NCBI GenBank assembly: GCA_028716365.1
Contig: JAQUPZ010000002.1
Span: 513,005 to 577,004 of the forward strand
Direction: 5' to 3'
Length of the DNA stretch: 64,000 nt
Source of the DNA: Kiritimatiellia bacterium
GTDB lineage: Bacteria > Verrucomicrobiota > Kiritimatiellia > UBA8416 > YA12-FULL-48-11
The translations under genes were made by a program, and so were the position numbers. Of this stretch, positions 27,384-57,548 are shown piece by piece. The notes beneath the pieces were generated by a model, which was not told where the DNA came from, searched no databases, and was given only the letters and a program-made list of their open reading frames with translations. Position 1 is the stretch's first letter. Each line of letters begins with the position of its first letter.

Positions 27384-27863
27384 AAGATATTACCTCTTTA
27401 ATCGCATTCTTCATCTTAATCCTAATCGTAATTTTCTATATATGACCGTTGGACAGGGATATTACCCATCGCAGTCTGACACCCGCAATCAAATAAAAAA
27501 CTTCTTCATAATCCGTGGTTAACATCTCTTTTCCTCTTTTCCCTCGCTTTCCCGTCTCTTATTTTGTATTTTCTCCAGAATGAGGTCGCGCATTGCTTGG
27601 CCGGAAGGAGCCAGGTTTTGTAATGCTCCCATCCCAAGTTACCCGGCATAATGCCACACCGTAGGCCTTGCGAAGGCGCATAATCCACGGGCACGGAGTG
27701 TTTTCAGGAATATAGTTACTAGAACATACACTTTTGCGAAAAGGCTGTGTTTTGTTGATGTTTTTAACAGGAATAATGAGTAATCTATAACTATTTAGGC
27801 GAATATGTCACCCTAATGATTTAGGCGAACGTTCGCCTAAATCATGTTCGGTGTGAGGAAGAC
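27384..27863. other. Border region between CAZyme block and cassette cluster
   Basis: These 480 nt carry no convincing gene. A 62-residue - strand frame (27506-27694) lacks a ribosome site and looks like repeat-derived sequence. The right end contains TTTAGGCGAA at 27794-27803 and the 30-bp palindrome 27816-27845. Transcription diverges from this region. Confidence 0.5.
27816..27845. promoter_or_regulatory. Perfect 30-bp palindrome with a third half-site
   Basis: ATGATTTAGGCGAAC is followed directly by its exact reverse complement, centred at 27830/27831. A direct half-site ATTTAGGCGAA lies at 27793-27803. It ends 18 nt before the ATG at 27864. It could be an operator. The centre GGCGAAC|GTTCGCC could also be two fused attC-type ends. 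Confidence 0.6.
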
Positions 27864-28187
27864 ATGACAGAAAATGCAATAGGGTTAATCATAATACTTA
27901 TCGCTGCAATCTCGGTTCTTGCCGTAGGAATCGCGCGTGTGTTCAAAAAGCAAAACAACAGTTGGAATTACTTACTAGCAGGACTCCTAGGCTGCATATG
28001 GTTGGTTCTCACAATCGCCCGAAATGAATGTTACAACAATCCAAACCCAAGGATACTTTCATTCCTTAATTATTTTAAGCATCTTATCACGGGAGCAGTA
28101 ATAGTTCTTGGCATCCAAGGAGTCATACAAGAAGTAAAGTTAAGAAAGAATAAGACACCGAACCATCCATCGGAGCGTACTCGGTGA
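27864..28187 (+). CDS. Small membrane protein in cassette 1, unknown
   Basis: The 107-residue protein has three hydrophobic segments (about 5-25, 35-53 and 70-88) and a basic C-terminal tail (RKNKTPNHPSERTR). AGGAA precedes the ATG. Its stop codon lies inside the first attC-like site (28157-28231), so the last ten residues are encoded by recombination-site DNA, as often seen in integron cassettes. I see no recognisable family. Confidence 0.55.
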   Translation: MTENAIGLIIILIAAISVLAVGIARVFKKQNNSWNYLLAGLLGCIWLVLTIARNECYNNPNPRILSFLNYFKHLITGAVIVLGIQGVIQEVKLRKNKTPNHPSERTR

Positions 28188-28231
28188 CCCGCGCGGCGCG
28201 GTCACCTCGACGCTCAATGGTTTCGTTGGCC
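28157..28231 (+). repeat. attC-like site 1
   Basis: Ends are ACCGAAC and GTTGGCC. The inner arms GAGCGTACTCGGTGACC and GGTCACCTCGACGCTC pair with a few unpaired bases. It spans the stop of the first gene and ends 7 nt before the next ATG. Confidence 0.6.
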
Positions 28232-28238
28232 GAAAAGA

Positions 28239-28970
28239 ATGAATACAGATCAAGTCTACAACGCCAGCCTGAACCTCCTTGCGTCTCTTCTTCAGGAATC
28301 CTGTTCCCATACACTTGATCAACACCCTCGCGAGCAATTTGTTTTTCGGAATGCCAGATCAATATTTAATATTGCACAGGATCTGATGTGCCTTGATAAA
28401 CATGACAGGATTGATTCAATGTTCGTATTGGTTCGTCCTTTGTTTGAAAGTCTTTTTAATTTGGCCGCGGCAGTTAATAATCCTCAGTTCGTGGCCGAAA
28501 AACATGTAGCTGAAATCGAATACTGCAGGACAAGGCTTGAGAAATGGACGGAGTTTGAGGGAAAAGAGAAAAATAATCCATTCGCAGATCAAATTCATGA
28601 CTTGTCAATATTAGCCGAGGAGCTGAGAGAGAAGTATTCGATAACAAGCCATAAGAAATGGAAAACGCTGGAGGTCGCAAAAGCAGCCAACTTGGAAGAT
28701 CATTACATAAGAGAATATTTCATGTTTAGCCAAAACACGCATGCTTCCATAGCGGGCTTAATTGCACAAGAAAATGAATGTGGCCGAAAACAAATAATCA
28801 GATGCGCAATTCATGTTCTCTTGGCAACGACTGGTCATGCAGCCCAAATCCTTCCAACCTTAGACCCACAACAATATATTGATAAAGCAACATCTCTCAT
28901 AAAAGAACTAACCCAAATGATGAGAGAAGGAGTTTTCAGAGAAGACGGCCAACCACCAAATGCAGAGTAA
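28239..28970 (+). CDS. DUF5677-like protein in cassette 2
   Basis: The 243-residue, mostly helical protein contains DSMFVLVRPLFESLFNLAAA and YFMFSQNTHASIAGL. This resembles the conserved Arg-x-x-x-Glu helix and later His of DUF5677-type proteins, whose function is unknown. The base composition is more AT-rich than the flanking chromosome. The TAA at 28968-28970 falls inside the second attC-like site. The ribosome site is weak (GAAAAG). It is likely cytosolic. Assignment to the family is by eye only. Confidence 0.6.
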   Translation: MNTDQVYNASLNLLASLLQESCSHTLDQHPREQFVFRNARSIFNIAQDLMCLDKHDRIDSMFVLVRPLFESLFNLAAAVNNPQFVAEKHVAEIEYCRTRLEKWTEFEGKEKNNPFADQIHDLSILAEELREKYSITSHKKWKTLEVAKAANLEDHYIREYFMFSQNTHASIAGLIAQENECGRKQIIRCAIHVLLATTGHAAQILPTLDPQQYIDKATSLIKELTQMMREGVFREDGQPPNAE

Positions 28971-29010
28971 GTCGCAGAAGCCGCGCCGCCCCTGATTTGA
29001 GGCGTTGATC
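28947..29010 (+). repeat. attC-like site 2
   Basis: Left GGCCAACCACCAAAT pairs with right ATTTGAGGCGTTGATC with two small bulges. The loop region contains GCCGCGCCGCCCC. It overlaps the stop of the DUF5677-like gene and ends 14 nt before the tspO ATG. Confidence 0.6.
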
Positions 29011-29024
29011 AGAATGCGAATGAC

Positions 29025-29408
29025 ATGAATGAGTGGTATTCAACATTGAACCGACCCACGTTCACTCCTCCAAACTGGATATTCGCACCCGTCTGGACGG
29101 TACTGTACATAACGATCGTAATTTCGATATTTCTTTACTACCGGTCATCTCCGAAATCACACGTTGTTTGGACATCGGCTGTACTCGCAGTTCATCTCGT
29201 GACTAATTTCATTTGGACATATCTCTTTTTTGAACTCCAGTCGCCTGCGATGGCGCTGATGGATATTGTTATTCTGGATGTCTCTCTCGCTGTACTCATT
29301 TGCTGGTTCTGGAAATCAAGCGTGCTCGCCGGAGCCCTTCTCCTTCCATATTTGGCTTGGGTTCTGTTTGCTACCTACTTGAATTACGGGTTCTACAGGC
29401 TAAACTGA
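29025..29408 (+). CDS. tspO: TspO/MBR family protein (short form)
   Basis: The 127-residue protein carries the family signature WYSTLNRPTFTPPNWIFAPVWTVLY at its very N-terminus and PYLAWVLFATYLNYGF at the C-terminus, with four hydrophobic segments. Usual TspO proteins are about 155-160 residues with five helices, so the first helix is missing here. Family members bind and degrade porphyrins or regulate tetrapyrrole handling in membranes. It sits between two attC-like sites as a single-gene cassette. Confidence 0.85.
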   Translation: MNEWYSTLNRPTFTPPNWIFAPVWTVLYITIVISIFLYYRSSPKSHVVWTSAVLAVHLVTNFIWTYLFFELQSPAMALMDIVILDVSLAVLICWFWKSSVLAGALLLPYLAWVLFATYLNYGFYRLN

Positions 29409-29410
29409 AG

Positions 29411-29472
29411 ATCGAACAAAGAGGTTTCCATGGTACGCGGCAAACCGCGCCCGTGAAATCAAATGTTAAGAT
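29411..29472 (+). repeat. attC-like site 3
   Basis: Left end ATCGAAC and right end GTTAAGAT pair. Inner TTTCCATGGTACGCGG pairs with CCGCGCCCGTGAAA allowing bulges. It starts 3 nt after the tspO stop. Confidence 0.6.
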
Positions 29473-29486
29473 AAGGAGGAAAAAAT

Positions 29487-30428
29487 ATGCGAATAATATA
29501 TTATGCATTATTTTTAATTGGAGTTGCTACTAGCCAAACAGCGTTCTCGGCCTCCATTTCATTGTCATTACCAGAATTGCCATGGTCACTGGAAATTGCA
29601 ACCCCTGGATTTACAGTTGAAAAGATGGATATTTCACCTGATGGAGCTGCTGCGAGGCTTCAGGCAAGAAACAAAGCAAGTAGTGTTATATTGTCTGTAT
29701 TTCTGGAACCGGCTGCCCAGAAGGGTGACTCAAAGGCATGTCGTGAATATTATTGGAATAGGGCAAAGCAGAGTCCCATCAAGAAAGAACAGATCAGTAT
29801 GCATGAGACCGGTTCGATAGCTGTTGTCGAATATATCGCTACTGAATATCTTGGTAGAAAAACAAACCAGAAGAACCTCAACGCATACCTTGCTGAAGGT
29901 GAATACTGGATAGATGTGCACCTCTCAAAGACCGATGACGAAGGTACTTTGCAGTCCATTCTGAAGAGCATCCGGATCAACCCCACATATATCCCGACCG
30001 CTTCTGATCGTTTCGATTTTGGAAACATTTACTTCAAACAGAAAAACTACAAAAAGGCCGTGACACAGTACGAGAATGCGTTCGTGCTTGAAAAGCAGAA
30101 ATCCTCTCTTCCGCGGAATACATGGATCGTCCTCGTTGATCAACTCGGGATGTCATATGGCATTTCAGGTGATTTGGCTAAATCGAAACAACTTCTCAAA
30201 TGGGCAATCTCCAAGGAACCGGAATACCCGATGTTCTATTACAACTTGGCGTGTACTTTTGCAGAGATGGACAACTTCGAGGAAGCGCTTCAAAATCTCC
30301 GACTGGCGTACAAATATAAACACAACTCATTACCTGGCGAGTCCGTTCCTAACCCCAGAACTGACTCGTCCTTCGCAAAGTATCTCTCCAATCCGGTATT
30401 CTCGACGGAACTCAACAAGATGAAATGA
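29487..30428 (+). CDS. Secreted TPR-repeat protein, unknown role
   Basis: The 313-residue protein has a signal peptide (about 1-21), a beta-rich N-terminal domain (about 25-165) and tetratricopeptide-like repeats from about 170 (FDFGNIYFKQKNYKKAVTQY, GMSYGISGDLAKSKQLLKWA, YNLACTFAEMDNFEEALQNL). TPR domains mediate protein contacts; no partner is visible. AAGGAGG lies 7 nt before the ATG, a stronger ribosome site than in most genes of this cluster. The final A of its TGA is the first base of attC-like site 4. Confidence 0.75.
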   Translation: MRIIYYALFLIGVATSQTAFSASISLSLPELPWSLEIATPGFTVEKMDISPDGAAARLQARNKASSVILSVFLEPAAQKGDSKACREYYWNRAKQSPIKKEQISMHETGSIAVVEYIATEYLGRKTNQKNLNAYLAEGEYWIDVHLSKTDDEGTLQSILKSIRINPTYIPTASDRFDFGNIYFKQKNYKKAVTQYENAFVLEKQKSSLPRNTWIVLVDQLGMSYGISGDLAKSKQLLKWAISKEPEYPMFYYNLACTFAEMDNFEEALQNLRLAYKYKHNSLPGESVPNPRTDSSFAKYLSNPVFSTELNKMK

Positions 30429-30493
30429 TCCAACGCTCGAAGCTTACTCGGTGACCGCGGCGGTTACCTCGTGGCTAAAGCTGGTCGTTGGGC
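30428..30493 (+). repeat. attC-like site 4 (exact consensus ends)
   Basis: The ends are ATCCAAC and GTTGGGC, both exact matches to RYYYAAC and GTTRRRY. The arms (CGCTCGAAGCTTACTCGGT / GGTTACC..AAAGCTGGTCG) pair with extra unpaired bases. Length is 66 bp. This is the best of the series. Confidence 0.75.
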
Positions 30494-30507
30494 TTGAGAA
30501 GAATAAA

Positions 30508-30912
30508 ATGAAAAAGCAAATACCATTCATTACTTTAGTGAGTATTGGCTTGATCGAAGTTTTCTATGGAATCCTCTGGGGGAAAATGAGGATTTACGCC
30601 CATGAAGCTCCTTTCTCCCATGAGATGAACTATACAAAATGGACAGATTCACAGGCCGTTGCCTACCGAAAATACATCGACATTTTCAAGGACCAATGGT
30701 CAATTGTTGCATGGTTCGGATTGCTAACAATTGTTGCGGCTATAATCTGGTTCCTGATTGACAGAAGAATAGAAGCAAAAGCGAAAGCCCAACCACCTTC
30801 TGCTGGCGACGCTGAAAACAGCGCGCCAGAGAAGTACCGTCAGGCGGGAAAAGATATAAAGACATACACACATGAAAGAATTGAAAATCAGCAAAGTCTT
30901 CATGTTGATTGA
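30508..30912 (+). CDS. Small membrane protein in cassette, unknown
   Basis: The 134-residue protein starts at the ATG at 30508; an upstream in-frame GTG lies inside the attC-like site. It has hydrophobic segments at about 6-24 and 67-86 and a charged tail. Its C-terminal PPSAGDAENSAPEK is encoded by attC-like site 5. A similar tail (PSSAGDTETSVHEK) ends the cassette protein at 57172-57540, because both sites share sequence. The frame runs on into the next cassette and overlaps the flavin reductase gene by 41 nt. Confidence 0.55.
   Translation: MKKQIPFITLVSIGLIEVFYGILWGKMRIYAHEAPFSHEMNYTKWTDSQAVAYRKYIDIFKDQWSIVAWFGLLTIVAAIIWFLIDRRIEAKAKAQPPSAGDAENSAPEKYRQAGKDIKTYTHERIENQQSLHVD
30787..30845 (+). 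repeat. attC-like site 5
   Basis: Left GCCCAAC matches RYYYAAC. The right end GTCAGGC differs from GTTRRRY by one base. CTTCTGCTGGCG pairs with CGCCAGAGAAG with one extra-helical G, a typical attC feature. It is closely related in sequence to the site at 57490-57548. Confidence 0.7.
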
Positions 30913-34060: not shown

Positions 34061-34837
34061 ATGAAACAAAAAGGTACCGGAACATTATTGAGAAGATACG
34101 TTTGCTTGCTCGCCGCCTGTTCTCTGGTTATCTGCACGGTTGTTGATGTCATGGCGCAAGCACCCGCAGGACCACCAAAAGGAGGCGGGTGCTATCGGCC
34201 CAGTGACTTGGTTGAGTTGGTCAGACTCGATCCGACAATCAAGCTCGATATCCGGTATGCTACGACCAACAACTTCACCGGCAAAGCAGTGTATTCCGAA
34301 CCGCGCGCTTTCCTGCAAAAACCTGCTGCCGGGGCGCTTGTGGCGGCTCACCGGTGGTTGAAGGAACAAGGCTATGGTCTGCTGATCTATGATGCCTATC
34401 GTCCCTGGACTGTAACAAAACTGTTCTGGGACATCACGCCGCCGAATAAGCGGGCGTTTGTGGCTGATCCATCGCTCGGCTCCAAACACAACCGGGGGTG
34501 CGCAGTTGACCTCAGCCTCTTCGACCTTAAGACCGGTCGCGAGGTGGAGATGCCGAGCGCATATGATGATATGACCGAACGTGCCTTCGTGACTCACGCA
34601 GGCGGAACGGCCGAGCAGCGGAAGCGGCGGGACCTGTTGCGAAAGGCCATGGAGCGCGAGGGTTACTTCTTCGTTTACCCCGAAGAATGGTGGCACTATG
34701 ACTTCAAGGATTTTAGAGATTTTGCAGTCCAAGACATCGCGTTCTCGGAAATCGCTTCGCCGGCAAAACCAAAGGAATCAACGTCGGTCCTAACTACTTC
34801 CCCCGGCACCGGACGCTCAAACAGCTCGCGCCGGTGA
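34061..34837 (+). CDS. D-alanyl-D-alanine dipeptidase, VanX/DdpX type, secreted
   Basis: The 258-residue protein has a signal peptide (about 12-32). The M15D peptidase motifs are YDAYRPWTVTKLFW, SKHNRGCAVDLSLFD (SxHxxGxAxD, Zn ligands) and PEEWWHYDFKD (catalytic Glu and third Zn ligand His). The family cleaves D-Ala-D-Ala for cell-wall recycling or, in VanX, for glycopeptide resistance. A signal peptide argues for a periplasmic recycling role. The last 17 residues are encoded by attC-like site 8. Confidence 0.9.
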   Translation: MKQKGTGTLLRRYVCLLAACSLVICTVVDVMAQAPAGPPKGGGCYRPSDLVELVRLDPTIKLDIRYATTNNFTGKAVYSEPRAFLQKPAAGALVAAHRWLKEQGYGLLIYDAYRPWTVTKLFWDITPPNKRAFVADPSLGSKHNRGCAVDLSLFDLKTGREVEMPSAYDDMTERAFVTHAGGTAEQRKRRDLLRKAMEREGYFFVYPEEWWHYDFKDFRDFAVQDIAFSEIASPAKPKESTSVLTTSPGTGRSNSSRR

Positions 34838-34853
34838 GTGGCAGTGTTGGAGC
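34787..34853 (+). repeat. attC-like site 8
   Basis: Left GTCCTAAC and right GTTGGAGC pair. Inner CACCGGACG pairs with CGCGCCGGTG. It overlaps the dipeptidase stop and contributes GGAG to the ribosome site of the next gene. Confidence 0.6.
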
Positions 34854-53643: not shown

Positions 53644-53819
53644 AAGCAAGAGGAGTGTAATTCTTTCTGTATCCCGACATTCTTCTTCGTCGGTACGACA
53701 AAAGAACAAAAGCATAGTCATTATCGGCAAGTAAGAAAAAAAGATTGCCCAACCAATCGCTGGAGGGTATTTTCCAACCTTGCGTGTTGAAAAAAGCTCA
53801 GAGTGATCGTTCCCTACAA

Positions 53820-55101: not shown

Positions 55102-55935
55102 ATGGCAGAGCAAAACCTTGTCTACCGCGGAAAGTCGAAAGACGTTTTCAATATTACAGAAGGACCTTATGCTGGTAAGTATCGATTTGTTTTTACAGAT
55201 AGAGGAACAGGCTACAAGGAAAACGGAAAAATCGTTTTTGATCCTGGATACGATACTGTCGTCGGCGAGATTCCCGGCAAAGGTGCTATCGCCTGCAGGT
55301 TTGCCACACATTTCTTTAAACTGTTGAAATCGAAGGGCATTCCTTCGCATTATATTGATACAATCAAAGAGAATGAAATGATTGTGGAACCCGCCATACC
55401 ACTATGCATGCCGGTGGAATCACCGGAATTTCCAGGATCAGCGCCGTTATTGAATCTTGAATTCACCTGGAGAAATAACGCAACCGGGAGTTTCTGGAGA
55501 AGGTACCCATTTGTGAAACCCTGTAAGAACCTTCGCAAAGTAGTTGAGGTATGGACAAAGGGGGATAGTGACGTTCTTATTACAATGGAAGCATTAAAAG
55601 CAACAGGAGCGATGAAGAAAGGTGAGATCGCCAAGAGCGTTGAGCTAGTGGAGAATATTGCTGAAATCGTTTCTCAAGAATTCACATTGCATAATCTCCA
55701 TGTCATCGATGGTAAGTTCGAACTAGGCAGATTGAAATTCGGGGACGGAAATATTGTGATAATTGACGAAATATCTCCCGATGTATTACGTGTATGCAAG
55801 GGATATTCTCCCGATAAGAGCGGTAACTGCAAAGAATATAAACAATGTACGACAACGACCTATTCTGACGGCAAGAGGATAATAAAAAACAGGAACCAGG
55901 TCTCTGCTGCTGATTTTATAAATATATTTCTATAA
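55102..55935 (+). CDS. SAICAR synthase-like (PurC family) enzyme
   Basis: The 277-residue protein starts with the PurC signature LVYRGKSKDVFNI. It also has an ATP-grasp-like core (PLLNLEFTWRNN, NLHVIDGKFELGRLKFGDGNIVIIDEISPDVLRV). Family members join aspartate to CAIR in purine synthesis. It is longer than typical PurC (~240) with an insert around DRGTGYKENGKIVF. GAGGAGG precedes the ATG. The sequence is more AT-rich than its surroundings. No other purine gene is near, so the exact role is inferred from family only. Confidence 0.8.
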   Translation: MAEQNLVYRGKSKDVFNITEGPYAGKYRFVFTDRGTGYKENGKIVFDPGYDTVVGEIPGKGAIACRFATHFFKLLKSKGIPSHYIDTIKENEMIVEPAIPLCMPVESPEFPGSAPLLNLEFTWRNNATGSFWRRYPFVKPCKNLRKVVEVWTKGDSDVLITMEALKATGAMKKGEIAKSVELVENIAEIVSQEFTLHNLHVIDGKFELGRLKFGDGNIVIIDEISPDVLRVCKGYSPDKSGNCKEYKQCTTTTYSDGKRIIKNRNQVSAADFINIFL

Positions 55936-56168: not shown

Positions 56169-56654
56169 ATGAAAAAACTTATCGCCATTATCGCATGTGG
56201 AGTATTTGTCGGGTGTGATTATACCGTTCCGCTTGTAAAGACGCCGGAGAAGGGAATCGATTCAAAGATCGTTGGATTGTGGCAGAGGCCGGAAGAGAAC
56301 GGACAAAGCCTGTTGGTGTTGCCCCTGAACAAACAGGAATATATGGTCTCCTTTCCAGCCGGTTCAAAGGATGCGATGTTTGCCCGTGCGTGCCTTTGCC
56401 GCAGTGGTGACAAGACGCTCGTGCAATTGGAGTGGTTTGGAACCGCTCAAGCCAAACTGCCTGATGATAACCGGGTCTTTCAGTTCGCAGCATACACGGT
56501 TGACGGAAACACATTGACCATTCGCATGTTGAATCCCGATGTTGTGAAGAAGGATGTGAAATCAACAGACGAACTGGCAAGGGCCATCACAGACAACAAG
56601 GACAAGCCGGACCTTTTCAAGGAAAAGATGGTCTTCACGAAGGTTAAGAATTGA
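56169..56654 (+). CDS. Small lipoprotein, unknown
   Basis: About 161 residues from the ATG at 56169 (AGGAGA upstream). The lipobox FVGC gives Cys near residue 16. The mature part is beta-rich (GLWQRPEENGQSLLVLPLNKQEYMV, VQLEWFGTAQAKLP, FAAYTVDGNTLTIRML). No family is recognised. Its stop lies next to the first attC-like site of the second cluster. Confidence 0.65.
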   Translation: MKKLIAIIACGVFVGCDYTVPLVKTPEKGIDSKIVGLWQRPEENGQSLLVLPLNKQEYMVSFPAGSKDAMFARACLCRSGDKTLVQLEWFGTAQAKLPDDNRVFQFAAYTVDGNTLTIRMLNPDVVKKDVKSTDELARAITDNKDKPDLFKEKMVFTKVKN

Positions 56655-56719
56655 TCCCAAACCATATCCCAAAACCTATCTTCGCTGGCCGTGCCGAAGA
56701 CTCAGTGTGATTGTTCGGC
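56655..56719 (+). repeat. attC-like site, second cluster, 1
   Basis: Left TCCCAAAC pairs with right GTTCGGC. Inner TCTTCG pairs with CGAAGA around the loop CTGGCCGTGC. It starts just after the lipoprotein stop and ends 28 nt before the next ATG. The right box differs from GTTRRRY at one base. Confidence 0.5.
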
Positions 56720-56747
56720 TTGATTAATTAAACGCTGGGACAAAATA

Positions 56748-57107
56748 ATGGGCGATGCGATCTTCAACATCATCTGGGGTGCGTTGGTGGGCTGGACCTG
56801 TCTGAAACCGGATGGATACGGGCCATATGTCCTTCTGGGATTCAATGGCGGTGATTTTCTTATAACGCTGCTCTGCGGGCTTGGCGACGGGTACTTGAAG
56901 GAGGAAGGTGATTTAAACCTGGGAAGTTTTCTCATGACCACCATGGTATTCGCCTTGCTCGGTGGTTTCTATGTGGGGGATCTCTCCTTCCAGCCGGGCA
57001 GTGATGCCTATAACAATGCCCTTTACCTCATCTTCGTCAGCTTCTGGCTCGCTTTCGGTTATCGTTATCTTCAGTATGGTGTGATTCATGTGTTAAGAAA
57101 GTTTTAG
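56748..57107 (+). CDS. Small membrane protein in cassette, unknown
   Basis: The 119-residue protein has three or four hydrophobic segments (about 3-18, 27-43, 60-76 and 87-104) and ends in a basic helix (HVLRKF). No motif is recognised. The start lies 28 nt after an attC-like site and lacks a clear Shine-Dalgarno (GGGA at 56737-56740 is the best candidate). Its stop abuts the next site. Confidence 0.55.
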   Translation: MGDAIFNIIWGALVGWTCLKPDGYGPYVLLGFNGGDFLITLLCGLGDGYLKEEGDLNLGSFLMTTMVFALLGGFYVGDLSFQPGSDAYNNALYLIFVSFWLAFGYRYLQYGVIHVLRKF

Positions 57108-57163
57108 CCTGAACCATGGGCCTGTATGCTATCGGCGCAAAGCCATACCTCAGCGTTGGCAGG
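57107..57163 (+). repeat. attC-like site, second cluster, 2
   Basis: GCCTGAACCATGGGCCTGTATGC at its left half (ends within 20 of the loop) and GCCATACC...GCGTTGGCAGG at its right half pair with bulges. The right box GTTGGCA differs from GTTRRRY in its last two bases. Its end supplies AGG of the next gene's ribosome site. Confidence 0.5.
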
Positions 57164-57171
57164 TAAGATTT

Positions 57172-57540
57172 ATGAAATGTCCAAATTGCCAGGCAGATTT
57201 CGAATATACCTGGACCATTTATTTCAAGAACCCATTGGGCCGGATCAAATGCCCCTTGTGCCTCCGGCGTTTTCGACTCAAATCTTCGGCGAAATACTGG
57301 AGTATGCTTATTTTGTCGTTAATTATTTTCTCAGGATTTCCCATTATTGGAATGCTTGCCCTCGGTGTAAATGATGGCGTTACCTGGCTCACATACATTG
57401 GGCTCGGGATCTTAATCGTTCTACCAATCGATAAACTCCTGGATCAGAGAACGAGAAAGACGGAAACAATGGAAATGGAAGATAAAGAAGACCGGCCATC
57501 TTCAGCAGGTGACACTGAAACCAGTGTGCACGAGAAGTAA
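57172..57540 (+). CDS. Zinc-ribbon membrane protein in cassette
   Basis: The 122-residue protein starts with a two-CxxC zinc ribbon (MKCPNCQADF ... RIKCPLCLRRF), followed by two hydrophobic segments (about 45-63 and 70-86) and a charged tail. The tail PSSAGDTETSVHEK is encoded by the attC-like site and resembles the tail of the cassette protein at 30508-30912. The ribosome site AGGTAAG overlaps the previous site end. Function is unknown. Confidence 0.65.
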   Translation: MKCPNCQADFEYTWTIYFKNPLGRIKCPLCLRRFRLKSSAKYWSMLILSLIIFSGFPIIGMLALGVNDGVTWLTYIGLGILIVLPIDKLLDQRTRKTETMEMEDKEDRPSSAGDTETSVHEK

Positions 57541-57548
57541 CATTCGCT
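57490..57548 (+). repeat. attC-like site, second cluster, 3
   Basis: It shares CATCTTC/CACCTTC, GACACTGAAACCAG/GACGCTGAAAACAG and GAGAAGTA words in the same order with site 30787-30845. The arms GACACTG and CAGTGTG pair. The outer ends are decayed relative to consensus. Confidence 0.55.

Follow-up and report, generated by a model that had tools for sequence, protein, structure and literature searches.

A 64,000-nucleotide (nt) stretch of the genome of a Kiritimatiellia bacterium (GCA_028716365.1, contig JAQUPZ010000002.1, positions 513,005 to 577,004; hereafter the window) contains two related 59-nt sites, 26.7 kb apart, which very probably are attC sites of integron gene cassettes. They belong to two cassette clusters without an integrase gene, in a genome with two complete integrons elsewhere, and the cassettes likely arrived through the integron integrase IntI acting in trans. 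We refer to the sites at 30787-30845 and 57490-57548 as site 1 and site 2, and to the clusters holding them as cluster 1 (27.76-30.85 kb) and cluster 2 (about 56.1-57.55 kb).

Two weathered attC sites in the window

An earlier note on this DNA had proposed that the two sites align over most of their length. Both were found at these positions, and ungapped alignment gave 40 identities over 59 nt. When site 1 was slid along the two strands of the window (127,884 placements), only site 2, beyond site 1 itself, exceeded 31 of 59. A weight matrix derived from six attCs from outside the window ranked site 1 first in the window (43.6) and site 2 second (25.5), with a third-best score of −3.0; neither 60 dinucleotide shuffles (at best 7.1) nor 154 kb of other genome DNA (at best 13.4) came up to site 2. 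A covariance model trained without either site recovered both in the window (E = 6.8 × 10−12 and 3.5 × 10−4, respectively), and a model of the same type, again with neither in training, gave E = 6 × 10−10 and 0.03 genome-wide, all these E-values being rough.

30787-30845, + strand: site 1, 59-nt attC, R'' GCCCAAC, R' GTCAGGC
57490-57548, + strand: site 2, degenerate 59-nt attC, encoding the C-terminus ...RPSSAGDTETSVHEK of the open reading frame (ORF) at 57172-57540

The R'' box of site 1 matches the RYYYAAC consensus, its R' core reads GTC instead of GTT, and its bottom strand folds into a full attC hairpin with extrahelical bases (z = −5.2 relative to shuffles). In site 2, both cores are mutated (R'' AAC to GGC, R' GTT to ATT). 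Judged by their sequences, both are weathered attC sites of captured gene cassettes. From general knowledge of the GTT core, they should now be poor recombination substrates, because the R' core is GTC in site 1 and because site 2 has lost both cores and its fold.

The attC family and the integron integrases

Two integron integrases scored above the curated cut-off, one on contig C4 (462.6 bits) and one on contig C5 (422.2 bits); the latter matches the solved integron integrase 2a3v (E = 3 × 10−77). In the arrays, cassettes follow one another head to tail, and their hairpin sites, which have the form (R)YYYAAC ... GTT(R)RRY, lie at the 3' borders of ORFs in the orientation opposite to intI. 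A whole-genome DNA search with site 1 found matches in an array on C22 and, on C4, immediately beside the integron integrase. The 59-nt attC subfamily that includes both window sites is present in the C4 and C5 arrays beside the integrases and in the third array on C22, which agrees with the earlier reading of these sites as attC-like cassette sites.

A consensus of 29 well-aligning array sites showed an R''/R' helix, an L''/L' helix, and unequal unpaired (extrahelical) bases; compensatory changes kept the pairing at 10 of its 15 pairs, and sibling attCs conform to the RYYYAAC ... GTTRRRY boxes. Two covariance models, built with the window sites excluded, detected about 90 attCs across the genome, in arrays on C4, C5, C14, C20, and C22 and at over a dozen scattered loci. 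The structure-conserved family at many cassette borders, for which the earlier note had suggested a genome-wide search, was thus found, lying at ORF borders beside two integrases. R' boxes matching GTT[GC]G were rarer among dispersed attCs (16 of 28) than among array attCs (64 of 74; p = 0.003), and these departures fit hybrid boxes or decay.

The attC tip pattern was absent from viral contigs; in genome contigs, it found one true relative, LaPlata_bin-2000 (L043), and one Sphingobium match, with no attC array there as far as seen. Terminal attCs shared no right flank above shuffles, and no Rfam family matched in the window. A strict RYYYAAC/GTTRRRY pattern scan was too rigid and missed most real attCs, and a looser fold scan returned many chance matches.

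Cassette sites read as protein

The recurring peptide PxAGDxExSxxE(K) is the attC sequence translated as protein. The R'' box of the 59-nt subfamily lacks a stop codon; an ORF can therefore cross the whole attC hairpin and terminate shortly ahead of the GTT core, which accounts for the recurring tail (tails are given here up to the stop codon). An intact attC in LaPlata_bin-2000, another bacterium, encodes ...QPTPAGDAETSAPEE / KSQPTPAGDAETSAPEE, with the stop just before its GTT, and further attC-encoded tails are ...EQTPAGDVLKAAPEE (C20:16635) and ...QQSSGGDV...SASQK (C5:174518). The ORF at site 2 has kept its stop and ends at 57540; the one at site 1 has lost it and runs on to 30912 (...YRQAGKDIKTYTHERIENQQSLHVD). 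Of the similar artificial C-termini claimed earlier, the shared peptide is therefore real and encoded by attC, but the site-1 ORF does not end at ...APEK. No publication on attC-encoded protein tails turned up in a partial literature search; such tails could serve as a sequence-level marker for former cassettes.

Many upstream ORFs in the C4, C5, C14, C20, and C22 arrays also enter their attC, in differing frames, so that tails such as QPTNPPYSSPAGSKR and NKGMNGTR recur.

Cluster 1 is headed by an attI-like site

27764-27791, + strand: promoter-like TTAACA-N16-TATAAC, candidate Pc of cluster 1
27786-27850, + strand: attI-like site at the head of cluster 1, core ATGTTCG with two palindromic segments, resembling the C5 attI next to intI
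27864-30912, + strand: cassette ORFs of 107, 243 (DUF5677), 127 (TspO/MBR), 313 (TPR), and 134 amino acids (aa)
28157-28231, + strand: attC, 52.4 bits
28947-29010, + strand: attC, 21.8 bits
29411-29472, + strand: weak attC candidate, 14.1 bits
30428-30493, + strand: attC, 33.0 bits, R' GTTGGGC
34788-34852, + strand: attC-like site, 18.6 bits, covering the 3' end of the ORF at 34061-34837 (D-Ala-D-Ala dipeptidase-like)

By its predicted features, cluster 1 is a promoter followed by an attI-like site and about five cassettes, the last ORF (134 aa) reading through site 1. The 65-nt attI-like element lies between the candidate promoter and the first cassette, just 5' of the latter, and resembles the element between intI and the first cassette on C5 (score 32; maximum 20 for shuffles and 26 for random pieces). 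With four to five attCs (at least two define the class) and no adjacent intI, cluster 1 is an integrase-less attC cluster (CALIN). Neither window cluster has the adjacent intI of a complete integron; in the window, no intI above the profile cut-off was found, and no fragment either. Given the attC-like site at 34788-34852, cluster 1 may once have extended further.

About 108 nt directly 5' of the attI-like site (27678-27786) are near-identical to a stretch at C3:189.6 kb (upstream flank of locus L051), and the 5' part of this stretch (GCATAATCCACGGGCACGGAGTGT) also occurs on C22.

Cluster 2 consists of cassettes with eroded attCs

53747-53815, + strand: attC, 40.6 bits, unusual R' GTTCCCT, directly 5' of an asnA-like gene
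56169-56654, + strand: lipoprotein-like ORF upstream of the 56713 edge
56656-56719, + strand: attC remnant before the 119-aa cassette, unrecognised by the models (3.8 bits)
56713-56719, + strand: 5' edge of the cassette, R' core GTTCGGC, where similarity to the C1 paralog starts
56748-57107, + strand: cassette ORF, 119-aa membrane protein, 68% paralog at C1:1149797-1150141 (− strand)
57172-57540, + strand: cassette ORF, 122 aa, CxxC motifs and hydrophobic segments, tail encoded by site 2

Cluster 2 is cassette DNA, made up of two or more cassettes whose attCs are eroded, and it lacks an attI. Its 119-aa ORF has a 68% paralog on C1, and the DNA similarity between the two loci begins exactly at the GTT core at 56713. 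Behind an attI-like site on C1, this paralog occupies the second cassette. The local alignment starts at the G of GTT, and the sequences 5' of it are unrelated (score 9; maximum 14 for shuffled or random DNA). Taken as a GTT-bounded unit recurring elsewhere, the cassette thus has its 56713 edge in common with C1:1150 kb, but not its 3' boundary. The 119-aa ORF was probably captured, since a related protein in a relative of the same class (G175) has no recognisable attC around it, and the ORF at 56169-56654 is probably the preceding cassette. For the 122-aa ORF, no Pfam family above the cut-off and no paralog were found.

Only one attC in cluster 2 is supported by the models; another, at 53747, lies 3.7 kb away. 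Among the inner borders of this cluster, the one at 56.66-56.72 kb is a cassette edge by virtue of the paralog, not of the models (3.8 bits), and the one at 57.11-57.17 kb found no support. The broader claim of two cassette clusters drawn from one pool stands as far as cassette DNA and a common attC subfamily at both places are concerned; the single pool itself we only infer. The clusters differ in that cluster 1 has an attI-like site and a promoter, whereas both are absent from cluster 2, where the attCs are decayed.

The attC at 53747-53815 has no obvious cassette ORF of its own and lies right before the ribosome-binding site of the asnA-like gene.

attI-like sites across the genome

A sequence model trained on ten attI-like copies, all ten found through attCs, detected 16 sites in this genome but had no match in 38 relatives of order and class level. 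One site lies beside intI on C5, between intI and the first cassette. Another is at the left end of contig C14, and its integrase probably lies beyond the contig end, because the first bases of C14 match the start of the C5 intI region. Near the other 14 sites, which comprise several sequence types, no intI fragments were detected (tblastn, E < 1, with a strong positive control). Genes upstream of attI-like sites end 63-549 nt away.

A same-strand attC follows within 1.3 kb downstream of 14 of the 16 sites (chance 0.6% per site). Three sites outside the training set (C6:331947, C9:47642, and C11:148184) all have attCs downstream, and the one on C6 came to light without the help of an attC. Upstream of 11 of the 16 sites lies a promoter match of 10 or 11 out of 12 bases, as compared to 8 of 500 random pieces. 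All sites but one end in a GTT-type core, the exception being C5:372044 (GTTTAAA). Upstream similarity among the copies is limited to about 60-110 nt, so that the common unit appears to be a promoter plus attI and nothing more. We take the sites without an integrase to be integrase-free landing platforms, which probably either are served in trans by IntI or were left behind by lost integrases.

Origin of the clusters

The cassettes most likely entered both clusters by the action in trans of IntI. In cluster 1, they would have been inserted at the attI-like platform by the IntI encoded on C5; in cluster 2, the target may have been a secondary site or a platform that no longer exists. The activity in trans and the order of events are what we infer from this arrangement. 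More tentatively, and with some reservation, we consider it possible that the genome holds a distributed integron, in which at least 14 integrase-free platforms, each just a promoter and an attI-like site with a few cassettes of its own, are spread over the chromosome and depend on two integrase genes.

Several observations weigh against reading the two sites as attCs of clusters filled in trans. Site 2 reached an E-value of only 0.03 genome-wide, and its single-strand fold does not surpass that of shuffled DNA (z = −0.4). No attC is common to the 3' ends of the cluster-2 119-aa cassette and its C1 paralog, and neither the attI-like model nor comparison of copies found an attI-like site near cluster 2. 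The co-occurrence of attI-like sites and attCs is partly ascertained, as 10 of the 16 sites trained the model and were found through attCs. Finally, the genomes compared include no relative of the same genus or family, and hence no empty site could be shown.

One alternative, which we regard as conceivable but somewhat doubtful, is that the clusters once were complete integrons and have since lost their integrase genes, with nothing acting in trans. An attI with a promoter is the expected leftover of such a loss, and the damaged cores of site 2 and of other dispersed sites, seen in the lower share of GTT[GC]G boxes among dispersed attCs, suit it as well. However, no intI fragment was found at any locus tested, upstream genes stand so close to the attI-like sites that clean loss of intI would be needed 14 times, and attCs with intact cores occur in several dispersed clusters. 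The missing intI traces and the short distance to upstream genes make 14 separate losses less likely.

For cluster 2, insertion of cassettes at non-classical chromosomal (attG) sites is likewise an option to which we give limited credence. It would explain the missing attI; IntI-mediated attG integration is documented (Loot et al. 2024, as cited in PMC12901181); and if the target contributed whatever lies right of G|TT, an R' box such as GTTCCCT in the attC at 53747 would be expected. Against this, the cores of site 2 (GGC and ATT) resemble decay more than a simple hybrid, and the genomes compared include no relative of the same genus or family to provide an empty target site.

It is very unlikely that the attI-like palindromes are operators of a regulon that precede cassettes by coincidence: they are palindromic and sit just downstream of good promoters, but the C5 copy lies between intI and the first cassette, a GTT-type core is present in all but one, an attC follows in 14 of 16, and the three sites outside the training set have downstream attCs too. 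An ordinary dispersed repeat without any link to integrons has practically no chance of explaining the similarity of sites 1 and 2, since its copies, although many and hairpin-forming, mark the 3' borders of ORFs in arrays that run head to tail next to intI, all opposite to it, and have RYYYAAC...GTTRRRY boxes and extrahelical bases, a location and structure that refute it.

Relation to known systems

Integrons are usually seen as one platform beside its integrase, and integrase-less clusters are regarded as debris. The arrays on C4 and C5, with IntI, attI, and long attC arrays, resemble sedentary chromosomal integrons, from which the window clusters differ in having no intI. CALINs are well known and considered degraded integrons (PMC9024848). 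In Xanthomonas, they occur at seven distinct loci across species, and, as in the genome studied here, attC cassettes lie at several chromosomal loci away from intI and are thought to be mobilisable in trans; most dispersed clusters here have a promoter and an attI-like head, whereas the accessible part of that report describes no attI at the Xanthomonas loci (PMC12444791). Closer in this respect is the Shewanella prophage M16-3, in which a CALIN has its own attI, the same as that of a complete integron in the same element (PMC9892861). It shares with cluster 1 an integrase-less set of cassettes behind an attI or attI-like head, but is one prophage case as compared to 14 integrase-less attI-like sites of several sequence types. 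Insertion mediated by attG would yield attI-free cassettes as in cluster 2 (Loot et al. 2024, cited in PMC12901181), unlike the attI-like head of cluster 1 and of most dispersed clusters.

The component parts are known; the number and dispersal of attI-headed integrase-less loci are unusual. In a partial literature search, the Shewanella prophage was the single earlier report of an attI-headed CALIN, and no report of a comparable number of such loci was found. The arrangement would be easily missed, because the standard tool does not look for attI sites outside class 1, of which descriptions are poor (PMC9024848). If many promoter-attI platforms without intI do exist, captured genes could be expressed from many places at once, and cassette insertion in trans would be directly testable.

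Further observations

The SAICAR-synthetase-like protein encoded at 55102-55935 of the window has only very weak matches in the 38 relatives (best E = 1.5 × 10−4). Integrons look common in this class, because, of these relatives, 21 encode an integron integrase that passes the cut-off and 31 show matches to the attC models. In the C5 array (locus L030, 7729-7878 and 13440-13490), nested inverted repeats (GTTAAGCCGCGCGGCGCGGCTTAACGGCGAGCTG...) lie within the R' boxes of attCs, as though attCs were a target of small palindromic elements. In the C1:1150170 region (locus L096, 4671-4704, − strand), a 34-nt attC without the central hairpin (GACCAACCAGTTTTTGCTCAGCCAGACGTTCGAC) lies between two cassettes.
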